From assembly GCA_025558095.1 (NCBI GenBank), contig JAIVFI010000022.1, positions 496,001 to 560,000 on the forward strand: DNA of 64,000 bases, written 5' to 3'. The translations under genes and the position numbers were made by a program. This document shows positions 24,394 to 61,479 of this stretch, one piece after another (the stretch's first letter is position 1; each line of letters opens with the position of its first letter). The DNA is from Hyaloraphidium curvatum (lineage: Eukaryota > Monoblepharomycota > Hyaloraphidiomycetes > Hyaloraphidiales > Hyaloraphidiaceae). The notes below the pieces were generated by a model. That model was not told the DNA's origin, searched no databases, and saw only the letters and a list, made by a program, of their open reading frames with translations.

Positions 24394-25588
24394 TTGGATA
24401 ATCAGTACAAGTACGTTCCTGCCTTGACCGAACTGCCGCGGGGACTGCTCACGATCTACGGACAGCCATTGAAGAGGCAACCGGACTTTTCCACCACGGC
24501 CTCGGCGAGCGCAGCGCGGTGGCCAAAGCTCGCTTCTGGAGGAAAGACAGAGGACGGATGCCCGGAATCGCCGCTCCTGCGGCACGTAGCAGTCGACGGA
24601 TTGTGCCCTTGCCCGTCCCCAACGTGCGCAGGCGACCTGCCGCGGCGCGGCGGCTTGACTCGTCTGGTGTTGCTCGTTGCCGGCCCGCCGCTGTGGCAGC
24701 TTGTTATCTACGACATCCTCGTGCCTTGGACCTTCATAATCAGTTTCGGGAGCTACACGTGGTCCTAGCCGGGGCTCGCGGTTGTCTTTTCGCTCTCGCT
24801 TTTCTTCGGCGTGCTCTTCAATTACGTTGTCGCGTGGGGAAGCCTTGCCGGAGGGGCCGGCCAGTTTGTTTTGCAGCCATACCTGCGGCGCCTGCGAAGG
24901 CGGGCCATGAAGGACGCCCTCGACGCGATGCTGGATCGTCATTCGCGGGTAATGGAGGACGATCGTGCCGGCACTCCGAGCTCGCCGGCAGACTTTGCCG
25001 TCGCGCAATCCTACGAGGTCCTTCACTCCCACCTTGCACCGCTGTGGGAAGCCTCGGCCAGCAACCGCAACTTCACCCCGTTGGTCTTTGTCCACACAGT
25101 CTGGTGCATCATCTTCGGGCTGCTCTACCTCGTGGGTATTGGAAATGCCGCGCAGAGCCAACACTGACGATGTTTCCCTCCCACAGGCAACGGGTCGCTG
25201 CATTCCCGGCTTTGTCGTCGGCATACTGCTGTATCAGCTTTCAACCTTCGTGTTCGCCGTTGGCTCGGCCTCCGGCGCCAACGCCTCGATCAGTGACGCC
25301 CGGCACCTCTACCTCGCAGCGCAGTACCGCCTCCGGACCTTCCTCGCGCGACACGGCCCCTTCCCATCTGCCGCCGCGGACTCGCTCCGCGCGCACGACG
25401 CGCTGCTCGCCGCCTGCATCGCGCAGGCGGATGCGTCGGGGATGAAGCTCTTTGGCGCGACGGTCGGGCCGTCGGCCGTGCGGGTGACGGTCGTGACTCT
25501 GTTCACGATCCTGCTGGGCCTGTGGACCATCATCAGGGGCCTCGGAGGCACGCTGACGCTCGAGAGCATGTGTCCTATCGTTGCGTGA
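24394..25588 (+). pseudogene. 5'-truncated multi-pass membrane protein of the CPCP family with an internal stop
   Basis: This is a paralogue of the genes at 36798-38333 and 38572-40100. It keeps the LCPCPSPTCAGDL motif, three middle hydrophobic segments, HRVMEDD-type loops, and after a 55-nt intron (25132-25186) the TGRCIPGFVVGILLYQL segment and the conserved end (LLGLWTIIRGLGG..LESMCP). Two defects stand out. The frame is interrupted by TAG at 24766-24768, exactly where the paralogues read TWT-NAWSAIL and this copy reads TWS-stop-PGLAVV. The N-terminal ~200 residues, with two membrane segments, cannot be found upstream. It could only be functional with stop readthrough and a different N-terminus; decay is more likely. 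Confidence 0.75.
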
Positions 25589-25772
25589 CCTTATGTACTC
25601 GGCCTCGATTTCGAAAGTGCTCTTGAAAACGGCACTCCCGCCGAGTCACGTCATGTCGAGTCACAAAGCGCAGGGACGCACCCAATAGGGAAATGATCCC
25701 TCATTCACTCATTCACTCCCTATTCCTCACTCACCAAACACTGCATATCGTCCGCTCATCTATCTGGCCTAC

Positions 25773-26442
25773 ATGAGAGCCGCCCTTGCCGCCCTCACAC
25801 CCTTCTTCGCCCTGCTCGCTGTCGCCGCGTGGGTGCCACGGCGCCGCCCCCACCGCCCGCCGCCGCTGTGCTGACTGCACTTCCCGACACAGACCGGCTC
25901 TCGGGGCCCCCGCCGCCTCCTCCCCGGCCATCTTCGTGCGCTCTTGTGACGAGTGCGACACGAACCAATATTGGTCAGCGAGGATTTCCGTCCCCAAACG
26001 CGCCGGCCGCGCTGACGGATGACTCCGCTTCAGCGAATTTTCGCACCCCGGCGCGTCCTCCGAAGCACCGCTCGCCTGCGTCTCGTACACGGACGGCCAC
26101 TCGCTATACCGCCGCTACGATTACACCGGCAACTGCCTCGACCGGCCGGGACTGGACGCCAAGTTCTACTACGAGTCAGCGTCGGGCAGCTACTGCTGGT
26201 GGTTTTCCGAGCAGGGCGGCGCGTGGAAGCTCAACATCGCCGAGGGGACATGCCCGCAGTCGACTCCGCTCGTCGCCTTCGACGTCGTGGCGGCCTCGGG
26301 GAGCGCCCCGGGGACGTGCTGGACCGCCAGCCCCAACGGCGTCCAGTTCGGGCCCGGCTGCAACTCGTTCGTCATGCACGGGGGTTCGGAATCGTGCGGC
26401 GGGGCTACGGGCACCATTCCCATCACGGTTCCGTTTGCCTAG
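25773..26442 (+). CDS. Small secreted Cys-rich protein, copy B
   Basis: Introns 25829-25892 and 25974-26033 give 181 residues. The signal peptide is MRAALAALTPFFALLAVAA. Exon 2 encodes FVRSCDECDTNQY and joins exon 3 to form YCEFSHPGA, then LACVSYTDGHSLYRRYD, as in copy A (22165-22880). Downstream the two diverge: this copy has SYCWWFSEQGGAWKLNIAEGTC, a GTCWTASPNG segment and ends GTIPITVPFA. The shared exon-intron layout (first two introns, both phase 2) shows common descent. It is likely an extracellular disulfide-bonded protein; function unknown. The GFA gene and the broken membrane gene sit between the two copies. Confidence 0.78.
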
Positions 26443-26899
26443 GGGCAGGATCGGGCCCGGGTCTCGCTGTCACCCGCATAGCGCAGCAATCTGTAACCTA
26501 CTCAACCAGCTGCTCTCAATCTGTATCGTCATATCCGCCGTTCGGTCACCCGGCGTCCCGTTCGCAGGCAGGTATGCTTCCGGTTCTTCTCATGCTGTCC
26601 GCGGAACCGCAGCAACCGCTGGACTGCGCGCTCAACCAACGAGTTTGGCCCTGTCAACCATTCTGTCACGGAAGGAAAGGGGAATCCATCCGACCATTCC
26701 ACTTTTCGTCTGCATTGTCGCTTCCCGTTGCGTTACGTGGGTTCGTAGTGCGGGGCGGGGGTTTCGGGCCGTGAGCGGTGGCAAAGGCGGATGGAGTGAC
26801 GCGGGCAGAGATCCTGTACCATACCCTCCCTCGAATCACAAGGCGAATGCATGATGCATAATGGCGATACTCCTCATGCGCCGGCCCCCCGTCTCCCCC
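26443..26899. other. Intergenic between convergent genes
   Basis: It lies between the stops of Cys-rich copy B (plus) and the mucin-like gene (minus). No coding frame or RNA gene is recognised. Confidence 0.4.
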
Positions 26900-28734
26900 T
26901 TATTCCACAGCGAACCAAAGTCCCCCAGGGTAGACCGCCCCGTCATTCCCGCACGAGAACTTCATGTCCCCCGGCTGCGTCCTCATGAAGCACGTGGCCG
27001 GCCCCCGCCCGAACTCGATGAAGAACTGCAGGCACGGGAGCGCGTCGCACAGGCCCCGGCACCACAGCGTCATGGCCACCGCGGAGTTGTCGAAGTTCGC
27101 GGCGTCGTCCACCTGGGAGGCGTCGTAGTCGGGCGTGGTGCAGCCGGGGGAGAAGTTGCCCCTGCGGACGTAGGCGCGGGTCGCGGTGCGCGTCTGCGTC
27201 CGCGTCGGGGTGAGCGACGGCGTCTCGCTCGCGGTGGAGGACGTCAGACTCTCCGACGTTGTCGAGCTCGCGAGGGTCTCGGAAGTGCTTGAGCTCGTGA
27301 GGCTTTGGGAGGTGGTTGAGCTCGTGAGGCTCTCCGAAGTGATCGAGCTGGTCTGCGACAGGCTCGTCGTTGTCCGGGTCTGGCTGGTCGTCGCGCTTGC
27401 GGATGTTGTTGAGCTCGTGAGGCTCTCCGAAGTGGTCAAGCTGGTGATGGTCTCCGACGTAGTCGAGCTCGTAAGGCTCTCGCTGGTAGTCGAGGAGGTC
27501 CGGGTCTCGCTTGTCGTCGAGCTGGTGGCGCTCTGGCTGGTTGTGCTGCTGGTCGCGCTGATGGTCGAAGTCGCTGGCGTGAAGGACGTGCTGCTGAGGG
27601 TCGAGCTCGGTAGAGTTTCGGTGCTGCTGGTCTGCGCTTCGGACGTCGTAGCCGAAAGCGAGCTTGTACTCGCTGTCCCGGAGGTGGTGGCCGTCAAAGA
27701 AGAGCTCGCAGTGGCGCTGGATGTCCACGGCAGCGTGGTGATTGCCGCACCCGTGACCGACGTCGTCTGGAAGGGACGCAGTATCAGCCTGGTTGTTCGC
27801 CGGAGACACGACGAGCGACCGACCCCCTGGATGAACGTCCCGCCATCGACGCTCGTCGCCCCCGCCGGCCACGCGATCCGGCCCACCTCGATGCACCCGT
27901 CCAGCACGGCCAGAAGCAGCTCCGGCGGGGGCGGGGTGGTGGTATTGCCCGCCGCGGAGCCGTCCGTGCCCGTGCGCATGGCGAACAGGGGGTTCGGGGG
28001 GCAGTCGCGCGCGGCGAGGCGTCGGGCCGGCGGGGCGCCGGCGACGAGATCCACGCCCGGCCACGGGATTCCGGAGGGGTCGACGAGCCGCACGGACAGG
28101 GTGAAGCGGAGGGGGATCCTGGCGGTGGCGGTGCGGCGCGGGGTCGTCCTCCTTTTCGGTGTGCTCGCGCGGCGGGTCCGCGTGATCGTCCGCGTCAGGG
28201 TGCGGCGGGGGGGGCAGCACCACCGCGAGCCGGATGGCGTGTCCGAGGTGCGGAGGATGGCGACCCCGCGCGGGCAGGCGGGGCAGAGGTGCCGGGGGGC
28301 GAGCGCGTGGCCGACCTGCGGGGCGGCGTCGTCGGGCTCGCGCGGGGTGAAACCCCGGCCCGCGATCGCGGCCGCGGCTAGCGGACGGGCAAACCGAATT
28401 GCCGTCACGGTTTTTGTGACCGTTGCTGGGGCCAGGCGCGGGCAGCTGCGGGGCGATCAGGCTTCCGCGTGGGTGCGGTACGGCGGGACACGCACCAGCA
28501 GCCGTCCGCGGTCGGGTACGTGCAGCCCCGGCAGCTGAGACGGAGACGGGTTAGCTGCGGCCGATTCGGGGCGGCGGAGGCGCACCAAACAGGGGCCGCG
28601 CGCCAGGGCATCGACGCGGCCGCAGCGGGGCCGGTGGTGCGGAGCACCGCGAGGAGCAGCGCGGCCGCGAGGAGCGCCGCCTGTCGCGGGTGGAAGCGCG
28701 CCGACGCGGCACCGTGGAGGCGGAGGTGTGCCAT
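26900..28734 (-). CDS. Secreted Ser/Thr-rich (mucin-like) surface protein with Cys-rich end
   Basis: The signal peptide is in MAHLRLHGAASARFHPRQAA plus LLAAALLLAVLRTT. Introns 28585-28535 and 28495-28446 create a short Cys cluster (VCCRGCTYPTADGCCPR) and then ATVTKTVT, typical of fungal surface glycoproteins. A possible third, in-frame intron (27823-27767) cannot be decided. The next segment, LRFTLSVRLVDPSGIPWPGV..EVGRIAWPAGA, looks like a short beta-sandwich. A Ser/Thr stalk of about 170 residues follows, built on degenerate TTSESLTSS units and likely O-glycosylated. The C-terminal ~80 residues have six Cys (FSPGCTTPDYDA..WCRGLCDALPCLQFF..CFMR..FSCGND), resembling a small carbohydrate-binding or WSC/PAN-like module; this is a guess. 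No C-terminal GPI hydrophobic tail is seen, so it is probably secreted or wall-bound. Length is 558-577 residues. Confidence 0.75.
27190..27735 (-). repeat. Degenerate repeats encoding a Ser/Thr stalk
   Basis: Imperfect units of about 24-30 nt (on the plus strand GAGCTCGTGAGGCTCTCCGA and variants) recur many times. They encode TTSESLTSS-like peptides on the minus strand. Such arrays expand and contract by slippage, so copy number may differ among strains. Confidence 0.75.
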
Positions 28735-29130
28735 CGCCGCGGTCTTCTTCTCGGCGCCGGGCGGGGAACGCGCAATAACTCGCCAAGCGCGCCTGGTGGC
28801 TGTGCCGGCCGGATGCCGCACCCCCACCGGCCATCGAAAGCATGGAAGCGAGGCACGGAAGCACATGGCGCAGGCCGCGACTGCCGTCGGGGGTATTACC
28901 GCCGTTACCTGGCGCCGCGGCGCCGCCCACTGGGGCGATACAGCGGACTTCCACCCTGCACGGACACAGCCACCAGGCGGAGGATCGGGCGCGGGGGACG
29001 CGGAGAGGGCGGCTGAGGGGAGAATGAGGACGTGGAGATGGGGGAGTAAAGCTATTGGTGGATGGTTCGTGATGGTATCCCCGTGTGGAGAGAAGGATAC
29101 CACAACACAGCCACGCTCGACGCCGAACCG

Positions 29131-29236
29131 CCGACGTGGTGATGTTCGCCGTGCTGCTGCGCCTGTGGACCATCGTTAGGGGCTTGGGGGCACTCCAGAG
29201 CATGTGCTCCACTGTTTTGCGATTCCATGTAGTCTC
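29131..29236 (+). pseudogene. Remnant of the CPCP membrane-protein family (last exon fragment)
   Basis: Translation gives DVVMFAVLLRLWTIVRGLG-ALQSMC. It aligns with the C-terminus of the gene at 24394-25588 (TVVTLFTILLGLWTIIRGLGGTLTLESMC) and is visibly similar at nucleotide level too. Nothing upstream on this strand belongs to the family, so this is a decayed fragment. It lies about 400 bp 5' of the mucin-like gene start. Confidence 0.7.
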
Positions 29237-29892
29237 GCAGTAAAGGATCATCCTTGCAGTAGTAGGGAAAGGCGTGTCAGGACGCATCCAGCGCCGAAGT
29301 TGCGCCAGATAACCGCCCGTTGGTGACTGGAAGAAAGGGAGGAGGCCAGAAAAGTTGTCTCCGAAGAGTGTATGGGGCTATCTTCGCAGAGCTTCACTCA
29401 GGGATGTGGGCGCTGCGGAACAGAACCTGTCAAGGGGCGTCAGCGAAGGAATTCGGGGGCCGGGTCAGAACTGTCACTACAAACCAATCCCAAAAAGTTG
29501 AAATCGCTGCTTTCGGTGCCTGTTGTTGTCGGTTTCGTGACACGGTGCCCGGGCCGGGTCCCGGGGGAAGGGCACCCGCCGGCGGCCCGGGTGTGGCATT
29601 CCCGGCCTCCGGCCACCGGGCAAACCCTTGCAGCGAAATGCATGAATCCATTTTATGCATGCCCGCTGCTGTGCGCCGGGGTCGGCAACTGAGGCTCCTC
29701 GGGGACGGTGGCGGGACCGCGCGTGTTGGGTGCCCGGAGCACGCGCAACCTCACCGCGGACCTCAAAACAAACACGGCAATTGCCGCACGCGCGTCAGCG
29801 GCCTCCTCGGCGGGCGGCGTTTTGCGGGACTTCCGGCCTTCCGCGGCGGGACGGCACGGCGGCGCGCGCTGCCCCGAGCGCGGCGGCAAACA
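29237..29892. promoter_or_regulatory. Upstream region of the protein kinase gene
   Basis: About 650 bp without a supported gene. It presumably contains the kinase promoter and 5' leader. No TATA element is obvious. The in-frame ATG at 29320 would add a long stretch without recognisable protein features and is not used. Confidence 0.35.
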
Positions 29893-32294
29893 ATGGACGC
29901 GCACGCGGCCGGGGGGCGGCGGCGGCCCGCGCTCGACGACACCGACGGCGACTCGGCCGCCACGCTGCTGCCCGACGCCGTCGCCGCCGCCGTCGGCCCG
30001 TGCTACTCGGCCGGCCCGGCCGCCGCCGCGTGGGGCATCGACGCGCACGCCGCGCACGGCGACCAGCGGGTGCCGCGCAAGGAGGTGCCGCTCGCGCCCA
30101 TGCAGACGCGGCTGCGCTCCGTGCTCGAGGCGCCGGACGCCCACGGCAGGCTGCCGGCACCCGGGAAGCCCGCAAACAACACCCCGCTCGACCTGCCCCC
30201 GCTGCCCGCGCTGCCGCACCCCGCAGACCCGGCACACAGCAGGCGCAGCTGCGACGTGCCGCAGCAGAGGCCGCAGGTGCAGCGCTCGGGCTCGGAGGGC
30301 TTCGTCAAGCCGGTGGCCGGGCGGGTCGGGCCGTGGATCCTGGGGCGGACGTTGGGCAGCGGCAGCGTCGGTGGGTGGCCCTTTCATTTTATTGGGAAAT
30401 TCCCTCCGGCTTACAGGAAGCCGCTCCCGCGCTCCCGCTTCATGTGTTGACCCCGCTTCGCACCCCGCTTGGTGTTCAAACCGCTTCGCACCTGGTGCCA
30501 CCTGTCAAACTCCGCACCCCGCGCGCCCACTCCGCCGCGCCGCCCACCAGGCAAGGTGAAGCTCGCCACGCACAAGGACACGGGCCAGCGCGTCGCCATC
30601 AAGATCGTGCCCAAGGAGGAGGTGTACAAGGACGACCGCAAGGGCGCGCCGCGCAAGCGGGACCACCGCCTGAAGCTCGAGCGCGAGGTGGCCATCATGA
30701 AGCTCATCAAGCACCCCAACGTGCTGGAGCTCTACGACGTCTACGAGTCGGACACGGACCTCTTCCTAGTGCTCGAGCTGGTCGAGGGCGGCGAGCTGTT
30801 TGACTACCTGGTCTCGCGCGGCCGCCTGCCCGAACCCGAGGCCCTGCACTTTTTCCAGCAGATCATCGGCGGGCTCTCCTACTGCCACTCCCACCTCGTG
30901 TGCCACCGCGACCTCAAGCCCGAGAACCTCCTGCTGGATCCCTCGTGCCGGCGCGTCAAGATCGCGGACTTTGGCATGGCCAACCTGCAGCTCCCCTCCC
31001 GCCTCCTCCAGACCAGCTGCGGCAGCCCGCACTACGCCTCCCCCGAGGTCATCCGCGGCGTGCAGTACGACGGCGCCGGGGCCGACATCTGGTCCTGCGG
31101 CGTCATCCTCTACGCCCTCCTCACCGGCGGCCTCCCCTTCGACGACCCCGACATCAAGCGGCTCCTGGCCAAGGTCAAGACGGGCGTCTACGTGGTGCCC
31201 GGCCGCGACATCTGCTCCCCGCAGTGCCAGGACCTGATCGCGCGCATGCTCACGGTGGACCCGGCGAACCGCATCGGCATGCGCGACATCGTGCGGCACC
31301 CCTTCTTCACCTCCCGCGCGCCGCCGCCGGCCTCGGTCGTGCCCTCGGTCCTGGGCAGCGGCGACTGGCCGGCGGTGCCCGCGGAGCACCTCGACGCGGA
31401 CCTGGTCAGGCAGCTCGCGGTGCTGGGCTGGGGCACCCCCGCGCAGATCGCCGCCCGGCTGGGTGCCGAGGAGGCCAGCCTCGACAAGGCGTTCTACGAG
31501 CTGCTCGGGCGGAGGCAGAGGGAAGGCAGGGAACGCCGCGCGGGCCGCCTCGTCGAAGCCCCGGCGAAGCCGCACGCCGCCGAAGAACGCCCGCACCCCC
31601 CTCCGCGCCGCGCGCCGCCCCCCAAGATCGCCATACCCACCGCCGACGAGGCCGCGCGGCTGTCGCAGCCCGCGGCGTACGAGGGGACCACCCCGCGGTT
31701 CCACCGCCCCGTGCGGCGGTCCGGCTCTGGGGCGTCCGAGGCGTCGCTCACGGGTTCGGCGAGCCCCAAGCGGAGCTGGTTCGCGAACCTCTTTTTCGGG
31801 CGGGGGGAGGGGATGGCGGCCAGCCCTTCGGCGTCCAGCGCGAGCGATGCGGAGAGCATGGTGTCGGACGGGTCGGCGGCGGCACCGGACGAGGACCCCG
31901 GCAGGGCCATCAGGGTGCGGGTCGGGGTGCCAAGCGATGTGGGGGCGGACAGGGCGGCGGCGGACGTGGCGGGGGTGCTGGCCGTGCGCGGGGCCAGGGC
32001 GGAGCACGTGCCGCACCTCGGGGCGTGGCTATGCTGGCAGGGGGAGGCGGCGTACGTGCTGACGCTGGCCGAGGGGGAGGGGGGGTGGGTGCTGGAGGGG
32101 GCTCCGAGGAACGGTGGGTGCTTCGAAGGGTGCGGTCGTGGGAAGGTTGTGCTCAAGGTTGCATGCGCGCAGAGCTGGCGAGGGTCGAGGTGGAGGCCGT
32201 GTGCGGGGAGCTCAGGGCGAGGTGGGGACGGGGCAGGATCGGGCGGGCGCTGGGGAGGCTGATGGGCAGCCGGGAGGGCGGGGCGGGGCAGTAG
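29893..32294 (+). CDS. SNF1/BRSK (Gin4/Hsl1-like) Ser/Thr protein kinase
   Basis: Introns 30371-30550 (180 nt, unusually long here) and 32114-32172 give 720 residues. The first splice completes the glycine loop, GRTLGSGSVGKVKLATH (residues about 150-170). VAIKI supplies the ATP-binding Lys, HRDLKPENLLL the catalytic loop, DFGMANLQ the Mg2+ loop, and TSCGSPHYASPEVI the activation segment with the LKB1-type Thr. A UBA-like helix pair follows (LVRQLAVLGWGTPAQIAARLG), as in BRSK and fungal septin-ring kinases. The C-terminal ~100 residues (IRVRVGVPSDV..VLAVRGARAEHVPHLG, ending in a basic helix) resemble a KA1 membrane-binding domain. Fungal relatives act at the bud neck or septum in morphogenesis checkpoints; that role is inferred from family. 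The 150-residue N-terminal extension is Pro-rich and probably disordered. Confidence 0.9.
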
Positions 32295-32426
32295 ACGTGC
32301 GGCGGACGGACGGGGATTTGCGTGCGGCACGGGCCGTAGACCAAAAATGACGATTGATTGATGATTGAACAGCCGGCACCGAGTCCTTGGTCCTCTGCAA
32401 CCAGCAAGCAAGGGCCGTCGTATCGT

Positions 32427-33362
32427 CTACTCCGTCTCCGCGGCCTGGGCGGCCGGTCGACAGATCCGTCTATGGTTGGACCAATCCTTGCGCTGGCAGT
32501 CCTTCGAACAGTACTCAACCATCTTGCATCGAGAGCACCTCTGGAAGCTGTTCTTCTCGGGCGCAACTAGGTGGCAGGAAGCGCAAACGACTCCGATACC
32601 AGGTCCTGGAAGGTCCCTCCGCGCCGCTCTCGCCTTTGACCAGTGTTTGACCCTTTTGCACACCGCGTGCTCGCATGAGACACAGCTCATGAATGCTTCT
32701 ACCAGCAGTTGCCAAGGCCAATGGTCGGGCAAGAGAGCGTGGAGGAGCTGCCATTGGTCTGACTCGCGACCGCAGTTGATGCAGGGGTAAGCCCAGGCTT
32801 TCGGCTCGATTAGCTTCATGAGATCCTGGGCTTCACGGCCGAGGCACGTCATGATTGCGTCTTTGCTGTCGCCGCGGCGGAAAAGAGCCTCGGGCACTTC
32901 GACTTCGACCGGCGGCGCGAGGTCCACAAACACTGGATCGGCGGCGTCCTCCGGCCACGATTCCGCGATCCGCGGAACGATCATTACCGGGTGCTTTCCA
33001 TCCCGCGCCGGAGGTAGGCCCCTCCGCTCGGACACCAGGACCCGCTCCGCCCGCTCCGAGCACGCGGGTTCACCGCACACAGCCAGGACGCAGACGCGTG
33101 CCGGGGCCGACGAGAGCACCAGCGCACATCGGGCGCTCTCGTAGGGTCTCGTCCGGCATGCGAAGCACTTGGTCGCGTGCTCGGCCGCCAGCTCCTGGCC
33201 GCGGGACTCGCACGCGGGTGCCACGAGCTCCAGGTTCTCCGGCGACAATGGCGCGTCCGTTTCCTCGGAGATAACGAGCGGCTTCTTCATGTTGCCGTCC
33301 AAGATGAGGAACGTGACGGGACTAAGTGCCTCCATGTTGCTCAGAAACTCCCGTTCGGGCAC
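32427..33362 (-). CDS. MYND zinc-finger protein, multi-CxxC subfamily
   Basis: Single exon, up to 311 residues; Met at 33332 is an alternative start. The C-terminal MYND finger is CASCHLVAPEKNSFQRCSRC followed by KMVEYCSKDCQRKDWSNHRRIC, with all eight Cys/His ligands present. Upstream are Cys pairs shared with the other MYND genes in this window: HATKCFACRTR, VCGEPACSERA, ESWPEDAADPVF, YPCINCGRES and SCVSCEHAVC. Their order and spacing suggest further zinc-binding units. No SET domain is present. MYND fingers bind proline-rich peptides, so a scaffold or transcription-related role is possible but unproven. It is divergent from the F-box-LRR gene 190 bp away, an arrangement repeated at 44074-46872. 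Confidence 0.85.
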   Translation of the reverse strand: MPEREFLSNMEALSPVTFLILDGNMKKPLVISEETDAPLSPENLELVAPACESRGQELAAEHATKCFACRTRPYESARCALVLSSAPARVCVLAVCGEPACSERAERVLVSERRGLPPARDGKHPVMIVPRIAESWPEDAADPVFVDLAPPVEVEVPEALFRRGDSKDAIMTCLGREAQDLMKLIEPKAWAYPCINCGRESDQWQLLHALLPDHWPWQLLVEAFMSCVSCEHAVCKRVKHWSKARAARRDLPGPGIGVVCASCHLVAPEKNSFQRCSRCKMVEYCSKDCQRKDWSNHRRICRPAAQAAETE

Positions 33363-33553
33363 CGTGAGGTGTGTGGGTAAACAAAGCGACGCTCGGGAGG
33401 CGGCCCCAGTCCCGGTGGCGTACCTCCTCGCGGAAAATGGATGTCCGAAACGCGGATAATGTCCAGTTCAATGAAGGAGGACCTACGAAGGTTGCTTCGG
33501 GGCGGTTGTCAATCTCCCAGCGCGATCGGCGCGTTGCCCCCGACATACCGAGA

Positions 33554-35301
33554 ATGGGTAACCTCCTCTCTGCCGATGAGCCCCATGCCGCTGCCTGCGA
33601 GAGATTCGAGCCTCCAAGCGCTCCCGCGCACCCCGAGGAAGACGCTGCAGAGCCCGTCGTCGAGCTGTTCTGGGTTTCCCGCCAGCCTCACGCGCTCCCC
33701 CCGATGCGTCGCAGCGGGCGATCGATTCCGTCCTCGGACGCGTACCTCGCGACGCGTATCTTGCGCAGCTGAAAAGAGCAGGAGTTTTGCCGAGCATGAC
33801 GCCCGCGCTCCGACGCGTTTCTCCGCCCGACGAGGCGGTCGCGCGGATCGTCTCGTTCGCCGCGCCCCTCCACTGTCACGAGCACAGGGATAAAGACTGC
33901 TGCAAAGAAGGGAGAAAGGTCGCGGCGGTACTGGCGAGGGTGAACAGGCAGTGGGCCCGCGCCGCCGTCCCGAGGATCTGGTGCTGCGTCGACTCCGGGT
34001 TTGCGAACGAGGTCCTGTCGCGACTGCTGATCCTGGCCGATGCCGGCAAGCGGGCCACGATCCGATCGCACGTCAGGAACCTGCGCGTGGATCCGGACGA
34101 CATCGAGTTCCCGTGCGGCTTCTCGGACCTAGTTTCGGTGCTCCCCAACCTCTCTTCGGTCTCATTCGCGGAATCAGACGTCGACTGGCTCTCGGAAGAC
34201 GAAGAAGAGTGCTCGGAGCTCGATGAGGTCGAAAAGCTCCACCGCTGGGGCCATGGAACTCTTCGATCTCGCCCGGTCCTGCGGAGCCTCGCCCTGATGT
34301 GCCGGCCGGACAACGGCATCCGCACCCTCCGCCTCGCCTGCTGGGACTTCGACGAAGCCGATCTCCGCGACTGCCTCCGCAACCTACGCCGCCTCCGAAA
34401 CCTTGAGATCCAGGCTTTCGAAGCGCTTTCGGACCGTGTGATCGCGCAGATCGTTTCGGCCGTTCCCGCGGACCTGAAGGAGCTCGCGATCGGATGCCGC
34501 GAAACCGGGCCGCACATGCCGCTCCTGGACTCGCACATGCAGATGATCATGACCCGCACCAACCTTTCTCTACTGTCGATCGACGGCTCGCACTCCCTTA
34601 CCGACGCCGCGCTGGGCGCCGCGCTCGCAAAGTTCGACAACCTGGTCACGCTGCGGCTCCGGCATTGCCCGAAGATCACCGACTTTGCCATCGTCAGGGC
34701 GGCGAGCGCGCAGCTGACCACACTGGTTCTGAAGAACATGCCGGGAATCACCGCCGGGGCCCTGGTGCAGGTGCTGGGCAGGCTCCAAGAGCTGACCATC
34801 GCAGACTGCGCGGGAATCACGGTAGGGTGACGTGGCTTCTGATCTGCGCCACAGATTTGACGCCACCGATGATCCCAGGACGGACTGCTGACCAGATACC
34901 AGTGGCACGCTCTCCCGAAACTCGAATCCATCGGCTTCCGCGACCTGGGCAACCTCACCGCCTCATCTCTCGGCATGCACTTCTCCAAGCCGCGCGCGCA
35001 CCTCCGCCGCCTCGACCTGTCCTGCACCAAGGCGGATTCGCAGACCGTCGAAGCCCTTTCCGTCTCATGTCCCGGGCTGGTTTCCCTCCGTCTGGCGGGT
35101 TGCCTGGCCTCGCGTGAAGCGGTGTACATTGCATCTGCGAAGCTCGACAAGCTCGAGCTGCTCGACGTGCGCGGGATGCCCTGGGCGGAGGGCGAGGCGT
35201 TGCAAACTCTGAGGGAAGGGATGTGCCGAGCGGGGTGCAAGATCGTCGCGGATGAAGACGAGGATGACGTCGATGAAGACGAAAAGAAGTGGATCGTGTA
35301 A
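33554..35301 (+). CDS. F-box/LRR-type protein, paralogue of 44074-45910, probable frameshift
   Basis: It begins MGNLLS like its paralogue. The F-box-like segment is SPPDEAVARIVSFAAPL..KVAAVLARVNRQWARAAVPRIWCCVD. About ten leucine-rich repeats follow (NLRRLRNLEIQAF, LKELAIGC, NLSLLSIDGSHSLTDAALG, LVTLRLRHCPKITD, LTTLVLKNMPGITAG), typical of the AMN1/Grr1-like class that presents substrates to an SCF ligase. The intron at 34822-34878 is in phase with the paralogue's intron. The frame slips once near 33665-33675: the first frame reads EPVVELF, the next GFPPASRAPPDASQRAID, which matches the paralogue. A missing T in a TTT run would explain it. Translation from the internal ATG at 33796 would still give F-box plus LRRs (482 residues). 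The C-terminus is acidic and ends KKWIV. Confidence 0.8.
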
Positions 35302-35444
35302 CTGAAGGCAGACAAGGCGTCCCATTATGACCGCTGACTCACCCCTTGAAAGTCTCCTCCACCACCTACAAGAGCTCGGAACCGCGCAGCCCCACCCCTA
35401 TCGCCCACAATCTGCCATCCATCTCCCGAAGAAGACCATTCAGC

Positions 35445-36743
35445 ATGATGTCCGCCCAGCAGCTCGTTGCCTCCACCGCCAGGGGCCCCGCCCACGCCGG
35501 CAGCGACGGCCCCTCCGACGAGGCCAAGGAGCTCGGTGCGCTCTTCTTCGCGCCCACGCTGTCGCACGCCGATGCCGTCCGCTTCGCAACGATGCTCTGC
35601 GGCCCGCTGGAGAAGGCGGCGGCCTACTTCCGCCACCTTGCGCTCGCCCGCTGCCCGCGCCCGCCGTTCCTCCCCACGGACATCGACCCGGCCTTCACCG
35701 TCAGCGCGAACGCGACGCTCGAAGCGGTGCTCGAGATGGCCCAGGTCATGGCGGGCTTGCCCACCCGCGACGCCCGCATCGGACCCGAGGGCGAGATGGT
35801 CCACGCCAGGACCGCCACGGCGCTGGCCATCGCGCACGGCGGGCTGCTGCAGACGCTCTCGTGGATCGCAGTGGCTCTGGATGCTTCGACGATGGAAAGG
35901 TGGGGGATGCTGGGCAAGGGGCTTCCGAGATTCCCTCCCGACGCCTCCACGGGCGGGATCACCAAGCAACCCGACCCCATCGCGGACATGCGCCCCGTCT
36001 TCGTCGCAGCTTTCGTCAACCCGGCCATCGTGTGCACCACGCCATTCCAGGCGCTCGAGAAGCACCCCGCGCTGCGGCGGCGACTGGCGAAGCGGCCCGA
36101 CAACACAGAAGCATCCGCCCTGTTCCTGATGCTCGCCGATCCGGCCCGGCAGCTGTTCGAGAGGGCGGACTGGACCACCGCGCCCGAGGCCGAGCTGCGC
36201 ATGGCGATGATGGCTCTCACGAACAGGGGGAGGGCTCTCGTCTCCATTCTTCTCCAGGACCCGGCCCCGGCGCGTGCGTACCGCTCCTGCGCCCTGGCCG
36301 AGGGGCGGTACGACGTTCTCGGCGCGCTGGCTGCAGCTCTCGGCCGCATCGCATCCGTCGCGCGCTCCCGCCGCATGCACAACACGGGTCCCGCGGAGAA
36401 CACGGCCGGGCTTCTCGCCGCCTCCCTCGGGATCAGGGGGCGCGAGGAGGGTTGGGCGACGGCCCAAACGGAAGATTCCGAGAAGCGCATGGGGGAGATG
36501 GCCGCGAAGGAGAGGGAGGATGATGCTGGGGCGGGGGCCGATCGGTGCGACGCGTGCGGCAAGGAGGAACGAGGGGGGCAGAAGCTGATGTGGTGCGGCA
36601 AGTGCGGGTTCGCGAGGTACTGCTCCACCGCGTGCCAGAGGGGCGACTGGAAGGCGGGGCATGGGGCGGTCTGCATTCTGGTGCCGGCGCCGGGTTTCGG
36701 GAGGGCGGCCGACGGCGGAGCGAGGGTTAAGGTGGGGAAGTGA
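35445..36743 (+). CDS. MYND zinc-finger protein, distinct subfamily
   Basis: Single exon of about 432 residues. Start MMSAQQLV is chosen because the upstream in-frame stretch looks like leader sequence. Residues 30-330 are mostly helical and Ala/Leu-rich (LSHADAVRFATMLCGPLEKAAAYF, LEAVLEMAQVMAGLP) without a named domain. The C-terminus holds a MYND finger: CDACGKEERGGQKLMWCGKC, then FARYCSTACQRGDWKAGHGAVC. It lacks the multiple CxxC pairs of the other MYND genes in the window, so it is a separate lineage. The gene is 144 bp after the F-box-LRR stop and convergent with the membrane-protein gene, about 55 bp apart. Confidence 0.82.
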   Translation: MMSAQQLVASTARGPAHAGSDGPSDEAKELGALFFAPTLSHADAVRFATMLCGPLEKAAAYFRHLALARCPRPPFLPTDIDPAFTVSANATLEAVLEMAQVMAGLPTRDARIGPEGEMVHARTATALAIAHGGLLQTLSWIAVALDASTMERWGMLGKGLPRFPPDASTGGITKQPDPIADMRPVFVAAFVNPAIVCTTPFQALEKHPALRRRLAKRPDNTEASALFLMLADPARQLFERADWTTAPEAELRMAMMALTNRGRALVSILLQDPAPARAYRSCALAEGRYDVLGALAAALGRIASVARSRRMHNTGPAENTAGLLAASLGIRGREEGWATAQTEDSEKRMGEMAAKEREDDAGAGADRCDACGKEERGGQKLMWCGKCGFARYCSTACQRGDWKAGHGAVCILVPAPGFGRAADGGARVKVGK

Positions 36744-36797
36744 AAATCGTAGCCTTCACGGTTGTTCCTGTTGCTTCATCCGATCACGGGTTCAACG

Positions 36798-38333
36798 TCA
36801 GCTGCCCGCCCCGCCGCCCGGGCACACGCTTTCCAGCGTGACCCCTACCCCCACGCCCCGCAGCACGCCCCAAAGTACCGCAAACACGGTCAGCACGGTG
36901 ACCGCAAACACCCTGACGACGCCGTAGTCCACCCTGACGTCCAGGATGTACGTGGCCCGCTTGCCGTCCGCCGGCATGAAACCCGACAGCACGGCGTCGT
37001 GCGCTTCCAGTGCGTCCGCGGCCGGGCCGGTGGGGCAACGCGCGCGGAGGCGCCGGATCTCGTCGCGGGCGAGACTGTACAGGTCCTGCACAGAGGACAG
37101 GCCGGAGTTGAAGCGGGCGACGGTGAGGAGCCCGTCGAGGAGGTAGAAGCAGTGGACCAGGATGTGCGTCAGCACCCAGGCTGGGATGCAGGAGGAGCCG
37201 GCGGCGTAGATGAAGGCGTAAGCCAGGCCAAAGGCCAGCCCAAAGGCGAAGTTATTCTGAGCGAGACGATGGTTGTCAAAGCGGCGCTGCCAGGAGGGGG
37301 CGAGAAGGTGGTGCAGGGCGATGTATGGTAGGTCCGGTTCGTCCGCGGGGACCTGAACAAATGGCGATGTGTTGTTGACGAGGTCGCGGAGGCCGACGAC
37401 GAGATCCGACATTGCGAGGGATGCCACCCGCACCTGCAGGCGTGACTCCAGTGCAGCAGCACGAGGAGCAAATATCCCGTACGTGAGGCCTGAGTAAGGA
37501 ATCCAGAAGCACATGACGTTGTTGAAGATGTAGAGCGCGGCCAGGATAGCGCTCCAAGCGTTCGTCCACGTGTCGGAGCCCAGGGTGACGAGAGGAGTGA
37601 AGAACATGAGGAAGTTCATGATGGCGATAGAATGAAATACAATTTGCAACAGATTGCGAGCCAATGACGACCACAGGGGGCGAGTTGCGAGGTCGCCTGC
37701 GCAATTCTTCGCGGGGCAGGGACACAGCGGATCCGCGTCTCGGTGCTCCAGCAGAGAACGGGTGCCCGGAAATGTCCCCCGCAGCCCCCCTCCTTCTTCC
37801 AGATTGCGTGGCTCCTCCGCGCTGTGTCCCAATACGCTGGAGTCTTTGTTCCTGCCGGTTTGCACGGCCGAGGCGCGCTCGAGATAGCGGACGATCAACG
37901 CGAGGTCCCCGGCGCCCGACAAGTCGCCGCCTCGCGTGATCAGCCGCCTTCCCAATTCGAACCGGACCGCGAGGTACCACGTGAGCCCGATGTTGAGCGC
38001 CAGGGCCACTGTGGCCACTGCCTTCTCGCCCGTCCCGAACTGGGCACCGAACACCCACGGGACGACGAGCAACGGCACGGCCAGGACCGGGAAGACCAGC
38101 GCCGGCCGCATCGTGAGCCGTCCCCACGTGTCCGCGGCGAGCCGCAGCCGCACCAGTGCGTGTGCTGCCGGTTTTCCGCGGAGAGCGGCGAGCACGCGGC
38201 GCGCGTCCAGCGGCTCGCGCTCCGGCGGCGCCGCCGGCGGTTCCCATGGCGGTGACGGTGCAGGCGGGGCCGTCGACCGCAGGAGGGCGAGGTCGGCGGC
38301 GGAGAGGAAACCGGGCGCGTGGGGGGGAGCCAT
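36798..38333 (-). CDS. Multi-pass membrane protein, CPCP..CAGD family (intact member)
   Basis: A 511-residue single-exon protein. Cytosolic N-terminus: MAPPHAPGFLSAADLALLR and a Pro-rich stretch. Two hydrophobic segments follow (about 90-112 and 118-142), then a loop with GDLSGAGDLALIVRYLERA and the family mark LCPCPAKNCAGDLATRPLW (about 222-240). Further hydrophobic segments lie near 245-270, 280-315 and 375-425, and a last one near 480-505 (VFAVTVLTVFAVLWGVLRGVG), ending LESVCPGG. The CPCP..C cluster could bind metal or be palmitoylated. I do not recognise a named family. Three related loci exist in this window: the tandem neighbour at 38572-40100, the broken gene at 24394-25588 and a fragment at 29131. 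Confidence 0.8.
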   Translation of the reverse strand: MAPPHAPGFLSAADLALLRSTAPPAPSPPWEPPAAPPEREPLDARRVLAALRGKPAAHALVRLRLAADTWGRLTMRPALVFPVLAVPLLVVPWVFGAQFGTGEKAVATVALALNIGLTWYLAVRFELGRRLITRGGDLSGAGDLALIVRYLERASAVQTGRNKDSSVLGHSAEEPRNLEEGGGLRGTFPGTRSLLEHRDADPLCPCPAKNCAGDLATRPLWSSLARNLLQIVFHSIAIMNFLMFFTPLVTLGSDTWTNAWSAILAALYIFNNVMCFWIPYSGLTYGIFAPRAAALESRLQVRVASLAMSDLVVGLRDLVNNTSPFVQVPADEPDLPYIALHHLLAPSWQRRFDNHRLAQNNFAFGLAFGLAYAFIYAAGSSCIPAWVLTHILVHCFYLLDGLLTVARFNSGLSSVQDLYSLARDEIRRLRARCPTGPAADALEAHDAVLSGFMPADGKRATYILDVRVDYGVVRVFAVTVLTVFAVLWGVLRGVGVGVTLESVCPGGGAGS

Positions 38334-38571
38334 GATGCCGGGGAGGCGGTCCCCTACTTCACCTCAACAAGAAAGCTAGCGCAAAATGCTTGAAACATGG
38401 TTAAAGCGTGTTCGTGATGGATGCAGACCCGTAGTCACCAGGATCCGTGTTGATGTTTCTGGGATCAGCGCGCTTGATCGACTCCCGAGCAGGTTGGATG
38501 CAGCCGGGTCAGCTAGTACAGTTCGTCGTCCGACATTCTTCCCGATCCGCCAACTTTAGAATGGGTCAGCG

Positions 38572-40100
38572 TCAGCCGCCCGCCCCGCCGCCTGGGCACA
38601 CGCTTTCCAGCGTCACGCCGACCCCCACGCCCCGCAGCACGCCCCAAAGTACCCCAAACACGGTCAGCACGGTGACCGCAAACACCCTGACGACGCCGTA
38701 GTCTACCCTGACGTCCAGGATGTACGTGGCCCGCTTGCCGTCCGCCGCCACGAACTCCGAAAGCACGGCATCGTGCGCTTCCAGCGCGTCCGCGGCCGGG
38801 CCCGTCGGGGAGCGGGCGCGGAGGCGCCGGATCTCAGCGCGCGCGAGGCGGTACAGGTCCTGCACGGCTGTCAGACCGGCGTTGAACCGGGCCACTGTTA
38901 GGAGGCCATCGAAGAGGTAGGGGCAGTGGACGAGGATGTAGGTCAGGGCCCAGGCCGGGATGCAGGAGGAGCCAGCAGAGTAGATGAAGGCGTAAACGAG
39001 GCTGAGGGCAAGGTTGACGGCAAAGATGCTCTGGCTGAGGCGGTGGCTGTCAAACCGTCGTTGCCAACAAGGAGCGAGAAGGTGGTGCAGGGCAATGTAC
39101 GGGAGGTCCGACTCGTCCTCAGGGGGCTGAAGGACTTGCGATGGGCTCTTTACGAGGTCGCGGAGGCGCACGACGAGGTCTGACACTGCCAGGGACGCGG
39201 CCCGAACCTGCAGGCGTGACTCCAACGAGAGCGCACTTGGAGCATACATCCCGTATGTGAGGCCGGAAAAGGGGATCCAGAAGGCAATACAATTGTTGGC
39301 GAGATAGAGCGCGCAAAGTACGGCGCTCCACGCATGGGTCCATGTAGCGGAACCCAGCGTGACCAGGGGAGTGAAGAAGAGGAGAAGGTTGTTCATGATG
39401 ACCAAATAGAATACGGTAGTAAAGAAATTGCGCGCCAACGACGACCAGAAGGGGCGAATAGCGAGGTCGCCTGCGCAGGATTTTGATGGGCAGGGACACA
39501 GCGGATCGCCATCTCGATGTTCCAGCAGTGAAGGGGTGCCCAGAGTAGCCATCCCTGTCCCTTTCCCGCGGCGTCCAGGTCGATCTCGGGTAATGTCTCG
39601 CTCTGTTTCGATCCGCCAGGTGGTTTCACGGCTCGCGCCGCACGCTCTAAGTAGCGAACGATAAGCGCCAGGTCCCCGACGCCAGACAAGTCGCCGCCGG
39701 GGGCATTCCGTCGCCTCCCAAACTCGAGCCGGACCGCAAGGAGCCCAGTAAGTACCATGTTGAGCGCCAGGGTCGCCGTGGCCACCGCCTTCTCGCGGGT
39801 GCCGAACTGGGGACCAAACGCCCATGGCACGGCGATCGGTGCTGTCGTCAGGAGCGGGAAGAGCACCCGCGGCCACGCCGTGATCCGTCCCAGCACGTCC
39901 GCCACGATCTGTAGCCGCACCAGCGCGTGTGCCGCGGGGCGGGTGCGCAGCGCGTCGAGGAGGCGGCGCGAGTCCAGCGGCTCGCGCTCGGGCGGCGCGG
40001 CGGGCGGATCCCACGGCGGCGCCGGCGCCGGCGAGGCCGCCCACTGCAGGAGGGCGAGGTCGGCGGCGGACAGAAAGGCCGCCGCGTCGGGCGGCGACAT
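38572..40100 (-). CDS. Multi-pass membrane protein, CPCP..CAGD family (tandem copy, one frameshift)
   Basis: A tandem paralogue of 36798-38333 with the same layout: MSPPDAAAFLSAADLALLQ, two N-terminal membrane segments, GDLSGVGDLALIVRYLERA, LCPCPSKSCAGDLAIRPFW, the middle membrane segments, and an almost identical C-terminus (DVRVDYGVVRVFAVTVLTVF). The frame slips once near 39551-39570, in the loop just before LCPCP: one frame reads EIDLDAAGKGQ, the next MATLGTPSLLEHRDGDPLC. No intron of plausible size fits. Because everything on both sides is well conserved, a single-base indel (error or recent mutation) is more likely than old decay. Intended length is about 510 residues. The two genes are 238 bp apart and co-oriented. 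Confidence 0.75.
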
Positions 40101-41243: not shown

Positions 41244-43748
41244 TCACCTCTTCCGCGTTGTAGTCCTCTTCCTTGTCGAAGTCTTCCTCCGTGTAGTAGT
41301 CTTCCTCCTTGTCGAAGTAGCCCGCCGCTTCGTCGACCCCACCTTCCTCCTGCTGGACGTCCTGCGCCTCGCCGTCGTCTTCCCCGCCACCCGCGCAGTC
41401 GTCTTCCCCACCGCCGCCGTCTTCCGCCTGGTCGTCGTCCAAGCCGGGTCCCAAACCTCCACATCATACCGTCTCCACCTCCCCCTCACCGCCCTCGACG
41501 GCGCCCCCTGCGGATCGGCAAACACCACCCCCGCCCCCGGCCTCGCCTCGGCCCACCCCGCCGCCGCGCCCTCCCCGATCCCCGTCGCCCCTGCGTCCGC
41601 GGACGGCGCCAAAGCCGCCCACGCAGCGGCGTACCTCTCCCCCGCCCGCGCGAGGAGGTCGACCTCGACCCGATCGAGGTGGTACGTGATCCACCTCCCG
41701 TCGTACTCGTAGTCGCACAAGGACACCTCGATCGCCGATGCCGAGCCGTTTCGTGAAATGATCCTCGCGCGGGCTTCCTCGCCCGCCTCCGCGGCGGGGC
41801 CGAGCGAACCGTCTTCCAGCTCCCTCCGCACCCACACCCTCACGTCCACCAGGGAGACCGGGATCCCGAACTCGATCCTCCGTCCCGTGGAGGGATCTAT
41901 CGACGCAGCACCCAGCGCGTCCGATAACCGGAACCGCGGGGTGTAGCGGCACCACAGCCCCGCGTGCCGGAAGCCGATCGCCAGGGCGGCCAGCGGCCCG
42001 GCGCCGGCGGCATTGTGCACCGCGTACGATCGTGCGGTTGATCCCCACCCGCCTCCGCCCTCCTCGAGGAAGGAGGAGATGCCCGAGAGCTCCGTGGAGC
42101 CGGCGGCTGCGCGGAGCGAGAAGAGGAACCGCAGGCCGACGTTCCGCGGATCGGTCAGGTCCAGTTGCACGTCGCGCACGGTGACATCCTTCAGGAACGG
42201 CTGTGCGCTCCTCAACCTCGATGACGGCACGGGGGCTCCGGGGGCGCCGGGGATGCGCAGCGGGAGGAAGGCCGCGGAGCGGAGGCCGGATGCGTTCTCG
42301 AGGAAGAGCTTGGCGACGAGCGTGCGCGCGGTGGGGCCGCGGGGGTACGCGTGGGAGAGGGAGAAGCCGGGTTGGGAGGAAGGGATGGGGAAATGGGAGG
42401 GGGGGGAGTGGTCTCCCCAGTCGATGGTGAGGCGTCGTGGGGAGGTGCCGGCCTCGGGATCGGAGATGGAAAGCTCCATGCTGACTGTCGTCTCGGTCGT
42501 GCCGTGGGTGCGTGACAGCGAGATGCGGGTGATGCGCGCCGGCCTGCCCATGGCCACGTCCTGAAAGGCGTCCGGCTGCGCGGGCTCACCCGGCGCCGGC
42601 GCCGCCAGCAGCCTCCAGTCCTGCAGCATCAGGACATCCCTCAGCACCGCGAGCGCTGGTCCCGTGGATTGGTTCCACGCCGCCGCCTCGGCGTCCCCGC
42701 CCGGTACGGCCGCGGCGAGGTGCGCTGCGGCTGCCGCGGGCCTCCACACCCTGGATTCGGCGAACGAGAAGCGCGCGTGGAGGTTGCCGACCGCCGACAG
42801 CAGCACCTGCGTGCCCCATGCTACCAGAAGCGCTAGCTCTGAGGCAGGAGCGACGACGGTGCTGTTGTCGGGCCCGAGGATTCGCAGCCGCGGGGGAATC
42901 AGGGAGGGGTCGCCAAAGGGGGATTTGGAGGAGATGTCGGCGAGCCAGCCGCTGCGTCCGCGCTGGGTGAGCCAGTCCGGAATAGAGCGCAGGGTCGGGA
43001 TCTCTGCGTTCCGGGAAATCGGGGCACTCGGGTTGGCAAGGTCCTTCGAGGAAACCTCAGTCGAGAAGCCGTCCAGGTAGGCCTGCCAACCCCACTGCAG
43101 CTGCATGCCAAACGAACGTGCCCGCACGGCGGCACTGGCGGCGTCTGCGTACCCGGCCAGCGCGGGCGGTGGTTCGGGAGCCCGGTGCTGCAACCTCGCT
43201 CCTCCAGCAGCCGGGTTGCACAGGGGCAGGTGGTCACAAATCTGACGGATAAAGAGGCAGGCCTTTCCGATCGTGTCCTGCTCCAGCACCATGGTCATCC
43301 CCGCGGGCCTCGTGCCGGCCCCGTAGTTCGGGTGGTTGCAGTTCACCACGGGGAACCCAACGAAGGATGTATGGCACTCCCCCGGCGCGGTCGAGCAGCA
43401 CTGGAAGCACTCGCCGGTGCCACAGTCGATCACAAACGGGTTCCACGCCGCCGGGATCGGATTGTAGGGCACGAAGGCGAAGTACTGGTCCGCGAGCAGG
43501 CAGAAGGGCGGGATCGCGCCGCACTGCCGCGCCGTGCCGCCGCGGCGCACGCACGATGCCGTGTTGTCGAAGAACCGCTCGATGTTGCCGCCGAGCTCGA
43601 TGGGCGTCGATACGGTGTCCCACGCGTCCAGCGCCGGTTCCAGGGCCTCGTAGAGAGCGCCGAGGCCGCTCTGCCCTCTGGCCCCGCACGCCGCCAGGAG
43701 GGCCCCCGCCGCCGCCAACAGGTACCGGGCGAGGCGGCGGCCCGCCAT
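41244..43748 (-). CDS. Secreted protein with PKD-like domain and Lys/Arg/Thr-rich tail
   Basis: An 834-residue frame starting MAGRRLARYLLAAAGALLAA, a signal peptide. Residues about 50-180 are Cys-rich (ASCVRRGGTARQCGAIPPFC, DCGTGECFQCCSTAPGECH, CNHPNYG), suggesting a disulfide-bonded domain. Around 410-480, TVSMELSISDPEAGTSPRRL..DWGDHSPP..SLSHAYP matches the PKD pattern (WGDGS..H.Y). Further beta-rich segments follow (VSLVDVRVWVRREL, CDYEYDGRWITYHLDRVEVDL). The last ~65 residues are almost only Thr, Lys, Arg and Ser. Another frame of the same DNA encodes an acidic DKEED/YYTEED repeat, so the true 3' frame (or a hidden intron) should be checked. It is likely an extracellular surface protein; no catalytic motif. 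Confidence 0.7.
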   Translation of the reverse strand: MAGRRLARYLLAAAGALLAACGARGQSGLGALYEALEPALDAWDTVSTPIELGGNIERFFDNTASCVRRGGTARQCGAIPPFCLLADQYFAFVPYNPIPAAWNPFVIDCGTGECFQCCSTAPGECHTSFVGFPVVNCNHPNYGAGTRPAGMTMVLEQDTIGKACLFIRQICDHLPLCNPAAGGARLQHRAPEPPPALAGYADAASAAVRARSFGMQLQWGWQAYLDGFSTEVSSKDLANPSAPISRNAEIPTLRSIPDWLTQRGRSGWLADISSKSPFGDPSLIPPRLRILGPDNSTVVAPASELALLVAWGTQVLLSAVGNLHARFSFAESRVWRPAAAAAHLAAAVPGGDAEAAAWNQSTGPALAVLRDVLMLQDWRLLAAPAPGEPAQPDAFQDVAMGRPARITRISLSRTHGTTETTVSMELSISDPEAGTSPRRLTIDWGDHSPPSHFPIPSSQPGFSLSHAYPRGPTARTLVAKLFLENASGLRSAAFLPLRIPGAPGAPVPSSRLRSAQPFLKDVTVRDVQLDLTDPRNVGLRFLFSLRAAAGSTELSGISSFLEEGGGGWGSTARSYAVHNAAGAGPLAALAIGFRHAGLWCRYTPRFRLSDALGAASIDPSTGRRIEFGIPVSLVDVRVWVRRELEDGSLGPAAEAGEEARARIISRNGSASAIEVSLCDYEYDGRWITYHLDRVEVDLLARAGERYAAAWAALAPSADAGATGIGEGAAAGWAEARPGAGVVFADPQGAPSRAVRGRWRRYDVEVWDPAWTTTRRKTAAVGKTTARVAGKTTARRRTSSRRKVGSTKRRATSTRRKTTTRRKTSTRKRTTTRKR

Positions 43749-44073
43749 CGCGGGCAGGCCGTGTACGGGCGACTGCCAGCGCTCGGGAAGAAGATCCGAG
43801 GAGAGGGGGACGCAATGGCGCCGGCCCAGCCGCCGCCGCAACATCAGCCCCGTCCGTCAGCCTCGCCTTGGCATCCTCCGCCGACCGAAATGGAAGCACC
43901 TGCGGTCCTCCATGCTCTCATCGAGTTCGGGCCATCCAAGCATTCTTGATTGGGGTTATTGCGTTTGCGTAGCGTTAGAGGATCGAAGAAGAGGAATCGG
44001 CGCTTCCAGTTGCGGAGGACGGCATTGCGAGCTGGAGCAAAAGCACTTGCATCACCAATCATCCTGGTACGTG

Positions 44074-45910: not shown

Positions 45911-45990
45911 CATTTTTGCGCACGAAGGAGAAACGGTGATCGCTGAAGTCAGCCGCGCCGCCGCCGCCTTTCTCATAACTCGTCGGCGCC

Positions 45991-47089: not shown

Positions 47090-48035
47090 TCAGAGACTGT
47101 CTGTGGTGGACCGACAGGACGCGCACGTACCCTTCAATTCCACCAAATACGTCTTGGTCCTTTCCTTCGGCGCCCCCGAGGCAAACCTCTCCGCAAGCGC
47201 GGTCATGGCTTCGACGACGGCCCGCTTCCTCTTCTCCCGGAGCGGGTCGGCCATCAGCTTCTTGGCCAGCAGCACGGAACCAGCGTCGTTGGCGTCCAGC
47301 TTTTCGGTCAGGTACCCCAGCACCTTGTCCATGAACCCGGCGGCCGGAAGCACAAAGTTTGCGAGCCCCAGGCGCTCCATGGTCTCGGCATCCATCCTGT
47401 CGCCCCACACGATGTAGGGCACCGCGCGGCGCCAGCCCATCGATTCCGGAAAGATGGACGCGATCCCTCCCTCGGGAGCGACGGCCAAGCGGCTGAACGG
47501 GATCACCATGGAGGCTTCGGTGGAGGCGATGACCATGTCCGCGACGCCGAGGAACCAGGCGGCTGCGAGGTTTGAGCTGAGTCAGATCCACGACGACTCG
47601 CGGCCTCGGCGGGGACTCCAAACCTCCGGCACCTGCCGAGGGACCATTCACGGCCATCACGAGAATCTTCCGATGGTCCACCATGTCCCGGATCACGTCG
47701 ATGGCCGTCGCGAAGCGCGTCACCCAGAACTCGCGCGCCGCGCTCTCGTCCAACCCCTCGGGGGTCGACGCCGCCAGCGACGGCAGGTCCGTCACGTCCG
47801 CGCCCGAATTGAACCCGCGGCCGTTGCCGGTCACCACCGTGACCACGGTGTCGGGGTCGCGGTCGAACGCGCGGAGGGCGCGCTTGTACTCCGACATCAT
47901 GGAGCCGCCCATCGCGTTGAGCGTCCGCGGGCGGTTGAAGCGGATGACCCCGATGCGGCCGCCGGCCGCGGTGCCGACCTCGATGTCCTTGTAGTCCGGC
48001 ATTTCGGAGTGAGGGGGCGTGGGAGACAGCATCAA
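47090..48035 (-). CDS. Enoyl-CoA hydratase/isomerase (crotonase) family protein
   Basis: One intron (47623-47563) gives 283-294 residues, depending on whether Met 48002, 48032 or 48035 is used. Crotonase features: GVIRFNRPRTLNAMGGSMMSEY (residues about 28-49), GNGRGFNSGADVTDLPSL (oxyanion-hole loop, about 69-86), VMAVNGPSAGAGAAWFLGVADMVIAST (second oxyanion loop, completed by the splice), FSRLAVAPEGGIASIFPESMG, and a C-terminal trimerisation helix. An Asp-rich or Glu catalytic pair cannot be assigned with certainty. The protein may act in peroxisomal or mitochondrial beta-oxidation; the extreme C-terminus (TDSL) is not a clear PTS1. Only about 55 bp separate its start from the divergent MYND gene. 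Confidence 0.88.
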
Positions 48036-48089
48036 GCGTCACGCTTGCGAAAGCAGCCCATCGCGCCACATCAGCGTTCCTTTCCCGCG

Positions 48090-61215: not shown

Positions 61216-61395
61216 AGGATGCTGGCATGATGCGCTTGCTTTCCTTCTTGCCGTGCGAGGATGTTTGGCCCGGGGAGGCGTGCACAGCCGCAAGTCGATT
61301 GGAAGTGTGGCGGAGCTCCGATCGGCCCGCAGCCCCCGAGGCACCGTTTCGTTCGGCGCCAGGCGAACATTCCCCGCGGGCGCAGCGGGGCACGA

Positions 61396-61401
61396 TATAA
61401 A
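61396..61401 (+). promoter_or_regulatory. TATA box of the Vgb-like gene
   Basis: TATAAA lies 79 nt upstream of the ATG in an otherwise GC-rich stretch and is followed by a short leader without upstream frames of note. It is the clearest TATA element in the window. Confidence 0.6.
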
Positions 61402-61479
61402 GGACCGGCCGATGCGCCGCTGCGGGCAGACAGAAACGCCTTCCATGACACGAATCCCTCCTCCGACGCGAACACCGCC

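Follow-up and report, generated by a model that had tools for sequence, protein, structure and literature searches.

A large, undescribed family of seven-helix membrane proteins in a fungal genome, with possible chemoreceptor-like function

In this work we describe a family of seven-helix membrane proteins, represented by four loci in the window (the whole stretch of DNA analysed here, 64,000 nucleotides) and by approximately 250 loci in the genome to which it belongs. The family is real, very large and undescribed in the family libraries searched, and it is likely one of the largest gene families in this genome. On our reading, to which we give a probability of roughly 0.4, its members are lineage-expanded receptors that may work like the insect gustatory and odorant receptor channels (7TMICs). 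Such a number of loci stands in a fungal genome of 32 Mb, and none of the curated family libraries used covers them.

Family loci and neighbouring genes in the window

A family profile HMM was built from 51 paralogs and run across the window in six frames. It finds four loci, exactly those listed in the preliminary description. Copy A (36798..38333, minus strand) had been called intact, and it is indeed an intronless gene running from ATG to stop in a single open frame of 511 aa, matched by the profile at 36816-38330 with 510 bits (model positions 2-480). This score is high by construction, copy A being among the profile's own sequences, and the other loci are not all independent of the profile. 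The His/Cys motif of copy A, H-x6-C-P-C-x4-C, occupies residues 197-211 (37701..37745, minus strand), within the TM2-TM3 loop.

Copy B (38572..40100, minus strand) is a tandem paralog with 67-78% amino acid identity to copy A. The single frameshift attributed to it was recovered as two profile matches in different frames, at 39630-40097 (86 bits, model positions 2-165) and at 38590-39570 (413 bits, model positions 167-480). The frameshift falls at about 39570-39630, where the loop joining TM2 and TM3 is variable, and may be a single-base assembly error; an intron at this place was ruled out by the absence of GT..AG at the junction.

Copy C (24469..25588, plus strand) is a divergent paralog, which in the family tree branches with a different part of the family than copies A and B. 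The profile matches it in three pieces, at 24469-24765, 24778-25137 and 25187-25579 (77, 44 and 112 bits, respectively). Model positions 1-140 are missing and an in-frame TAG is present at 24766-24768, in agreement with the earlier account of a 5'-truncated locus with an internal TAG at 24394-25588. The coding sequence is interrupted by one spliceosomal-type intron of 55 nt in phase 0 (25132..25186, plus strand; GTGGGT...CCACAG). The fourth locus, fragment D (29124..29210, plus strand), is a relic of the exon encoding TM7 and the C-terminus, previously noted as a last-exon fragment at 29131-29236. Its profile score of 11.1 bits compares with a maximum of 7.7 bits in controls made by reversing or shuffling the window, and its DNA is 74% identical over 73 nt (E 7e-9) to the end of copy C, the closest copy. 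When the three large loci were masked, no profile score above 4 bits was obtained in the window apart from that of fragment D.

Genes of other kinds lie between and beside these loci. Three of them, at 32427-33362 (minus strand), 35346-36743 (plus strand) and 47454-48992 (plus strand), each encode a protein with a MYND zinc finger (Pfam PF01753) at its C-terminus and without any other recognised domain; they lie within 17 kb and represent a locally repeated type that flanks copies A and B. Beside the tandem pair are two minus-strand ORFs without Pfam match, of 866 aa (41244-43844) and 625 aa (44099-45976). A 502-aa ORF at 26900-28408 (minus strand), also without Pfam match, contains a long Ser/Thr-rich repeat stretch (TSSTTSESLTSS...), and its product resembles a stalk of the wall or surface type. 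A gene for a CSC1/RSN1-type calcium-dependent channel (Pfam RSN1_TM, PHM7_cyt, RSN1_7TM) is found as two ORFs at 55078-59554 (plus strand), presumably split by introns. Finally, the 478-aa ORF at 61261-62697 (plus strand) gives a strong match, at E 2e-33, to family PF24684 (Virginiamycin B lyase). Propellers of this type are best known from bacteria, and acquisition of the ORF by horizontal transfer is possible.

Protein anatomy and conserved residues

Members of the family are about 470-540 aa long and have seven membrane segments, as judged from the hydropathy of 53 distinct members. In copy A numbering the segments span about 77-97, 104-126, 216-249, 259-285, 359-379, 385-405 and 467-492, TM5 and TM6 (359-405) being separated only by a short conserved SSCIP turn. 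The long parts of the protein, namely the N-terminus and the TM2-3, TM4-5 and TM6-7 loops, all lie on one, more basic face, with a mean K+R content of 7.2, 7.2, 8.9 and 8.2 over the 53 members. On the opposite face the corresponding means over the same members are 0.9, 0.2 and 1.2 in the short loops and the tail. According to the positive-inside rule the N-terminus and the long loops are therefore predicted to be cytoplasmic, and charge and length together point to a protein with its N-terminus in and its C-terminus out.

Conservation is distributed unevenly along the protein. Mean column identity is lowest in TM1-6, which vary most (0.17-0.22), and reaches 0.57 in the TM5-6 turn, 0.47 in TM7 and 0.46 in the His/Cys motif. 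TM7, with the consensus VRtvaATvLTvgvGLfgiLRG, is the most conserved helix. The cysteine motif had been given in the preliminary description as LCPCP..CAGD; it is common to the family except for the final D of CAGD, which is not a conserved position, and the family-wide form reads H-x6-C-P-C-x4-C-x-G. The conservation of the cysteine cluster, proposed there as a point to check, is borne out across the paralogs: H197, C204 and C211 are present in all 53 members (100%) and C206 is present in 98% of them, all four residues lying in the first long loop. H-x6-CPC-x4-C is a probable zinc site, a metal site being favoured over palmitoylation by the occurrence of an invariant His together with three invariant Cys. 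Other invariant or nearly invariant residues are W256, W260, R298 and R302, as well as R474, T479 and T482 in TM7. The same holds for two cysteines, C382 in the turn between TM5 and TM6 and C504 immediately following TM7, which may form a disulfide on the outer face.

Expansion, selection and introns in the genome

The genome containing the window comprises 31.9 Mb on 55 contigs. Four protein searches, with about 84-90 candidates scored in each, yielded at least 165 distinct family loci on 42 contigs. Searched as DNA, the pattern CPC-x4-C-x-G occurs at 288 sites of the genome, compared with 33 for a reversed-pattern control, and all 12 sites read among those absent from the protein-search lists proved to be true family members. 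These two results lead to our estimate of about 250 loci. Of the 12 sites, a small sample picked by the motif, nine are open across most of the model: five in one frame, and four more when one or two introns are assumed. The remaining three are broken or truncated. Most of the approximately 250 loci have an open full-length frame. The proposal of an expanding and decaying membrane family, put forward from the window, thus extends to the genome, where broken copies occur among the loci and where the expansion takes on a scale unseen in the window. Clustering near chromosome ends is at most weak, 41% of the family loci lying within 100 kb of a contig end versus 32% expected (p 0.04, in a biased contig set). 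No relatives were found in viral and prokaryotic contigs.

Related pairs of members show dN/dS values of 0.22-0.44, indicating purifying selection. For copy B versus copy A the values are 0.22 in the C-terminal part and 0.41 in the N-terminal part. The members, this pair included, therefore are or recently were functional proteins.

The phase-0 intron of copy C lies four codons before the invariant C382, and the same site is used in five other members (L062, L067, L068, L070 and L075). It had been stated that the intact copies have no introns while the broken one has one; this does not apply family-wide, since the site is also used in members that are otherwise open. The intron as a mark of decay is ruled out by the identical intron in open paralogs. 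The carriers placed in the tree (L062, L067 and copy C) are scattered among intronless relatives. This is most simply explained by many losses of an ancestral intron, and repeated intron loss in an expanding family is possible. The protein searches favour unbroken frames and therefore return an excess of intronless copies. The chitin synthase genes of the genome, the presence of which fits a fungus, are split into several pieces, and the organism thus uses introns. For IFT57 no match above the cut-off was obtained in the genome. The organism could conceivably be an early-diverging fungus rich in GC.

Possible function and comparison with known systems

The family could be assigned to no described transporter or channel in the preliminary description, and our searches agree with this. 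Twenty-three members compared with Pfam and NCBIfam gave no family match beyond isolated chance hits, and a search of the PDB chains with the family profile gave no hit with an E value of 10 or less. A match to bestrophins or to an annotated DUF, named earlier as the result that would speak against a new family, was looked for in Pfam and NCBIfam and found for none of the 23 members. The bestrophins, the fungal GPCR classes, 7tm_7, 7tm_6, DUF3537 and PHTF are all contained in Pfam and none of them matched these members.

Profile comparison by hhalign with Gr43a, Gr64a, BmGr9 and Orco, the sequences of which were verified against PDB chains, gave no support for homology to gustatory and odorant receptors: the probability was 0.1-0.2%, and the scores were no better than those against rhodopsin or reversed receptors. 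Genome searches with 7tm_7 and DUF3537 gave no match, and the controls were equally silent, so that absence is not implied. The motif TYhhhhhQF is absent from TM7 of the family. Two AlphaFold models, computed from window-only alignments, reached a pLDDT of 42 and 53; in these low-confidence models long helices extend past TM4, lead into TM5 and continue beyond TM6. Foldseek and VIA-align searches with them returned chance-level helical bundles. Three insect gustatory receptor chains appeared among the top 36 rows of the Foldseek search with the TM3-TM7 model, at E values of 0.42-1.2, which are not significant and offer at most a lead. In view of the negative sequence tests, the missing TM7 motif and the poor models, we suggest a possible 7TMIC-like mode of action for the family and do not claim that it belongs to the 7TMICs.

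Membership of this superfamily has been recognised by general features before. Benton and colleagues identified GR-like proteins in protists and chytrids as proteins of about 350-500 aa with seven membrane segments, the N-terminus inside and internal loops longer than external ones, and their criterion also admits candidates without similarity to other families (PMC7746228). These authors later used the fold to recognise further 7TMIC members, whose sequence similarity is slight or absent (PMC9998090). The present family has the seven segments, and copy A, with 511 aa, is slightly above the published length range. An internal N-terminus and longer internal loops are likewise found, as far as topology can be read from charge and length only.

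Taken together, the architecture of the family and its mode of variation bear the signature of the insect gustatory and odorant receptor channels. The family is most likely a repertoire of sensory receptors, and may thus represent a fungal sensing system that has gone unrecognised. In the mechanism that we propose, the His/Cys site would bind zinc and brace the cytoplasmic part, and an extracellular C382-C504 disulfide would hold TM7 against TM5-6. The variable TM1-6 bundle would bind different small molecules, while the conserved TM7 of several assembled subunits would form the gate or pore, and the resulting channel repertoire would give the fungus a broad chemosensory range. The full form of this proposal, in which the fungus would have its own repertoire of about 250 chemosensory ligand-gated channels with a zinc-braced loop and a disulfide-clamped TM7, arisen as a very strongly diverged gustatory-receptor branch or by convergence, is rather doubtful as a whole. 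If the members are ligand-gated channels, their number is comparable with the size of insect odorant receptor repertoires. If they are chemoreceptors, they represent a sensory repertoire at insect scale and bear on how early-diverging fungi sense their surroundings. They would then also be informative about the early evolution of the gustatory receptor superfamily, whose fungal members so far are one gene each from two chytrids.

The extent of the expansion and the variability of TM1-6 would also suit a sensory family of independent origin, GPCR-like or other, composed of seven-helix receptors that are unrelated to gustatory receptors and are not ligand-gated channels; the zinc-like loop and TM7 would then couple to intracellular partners. 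The absence of a sequence signal to 7TMICs is in line with such an origin, but the predicted N-in/C-out topology is opposite to that of GPCRs and no Pfam GPCR family matches, and we consider this explanation somewhat unlikely. It is unlikely that the family serves in transport or in lipid or metal handling, with a metal-binding or catalytic His/Cys site and with copies providing dosage or substrate diversity. The invariant H-x6-CPC-x4-C could belong to such a functional site, as could the small number of Arg, Trp and Thr residues that are invariant; however, some 250 diverse copies with the helices least conserved would be unusual for a transporter, and no transporter family matched beyond chance. 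A role as surface proteins of allorecognition or self/non-self discrimination, with diversification through birth and death, would explain why the repertoire is large and diverse and includes pseudogenes and tandem copies, but is very improbable, as the short loops and tail amount to almost no extracellular sequence and leave little to display.

Among known systems, bestrophins share with the family that they are multi-pass membrane proteins, but the family has no Pfam match and bestrophins differ from it in the number and layout of their TM segments. Fungal GPCRs such as the Pth11-like class resemble it as expanded seven-TM families, with 1 to 40 members per genome in the species shown (PMC12842992). 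The present family differs from them by the lack of a Pfam match, by its opposite predicted topology and by a copy number several times higher. With the GRL1 proteins of chytrids, compared here by description only, it shares a fungal origin, seven TM segments and an identical predicted topology, whereas Spizellomyces punctatus and S. palustris have a single GRL1 gene per genome (PMC7746228) and not about 250 loci. Chytrid GRLs keep one of the four TM7 motif positions (PMC7746228). Compared with 7TMICs in general, the family is without detectable sequence or profile similarity and without TYhhhhhQF, and it has two additional features, the His/Cys site of the first long loop and the invariant Cys that follows TM7. 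It resembles them in its seven TM segments, its predicted N-in/C-out orientation, its long internal loops and its length of about 500 aa; in both, moreover, conservation among the helices is strongest in TM7, and the repertoire is large, expanded and includes pseudogenes.
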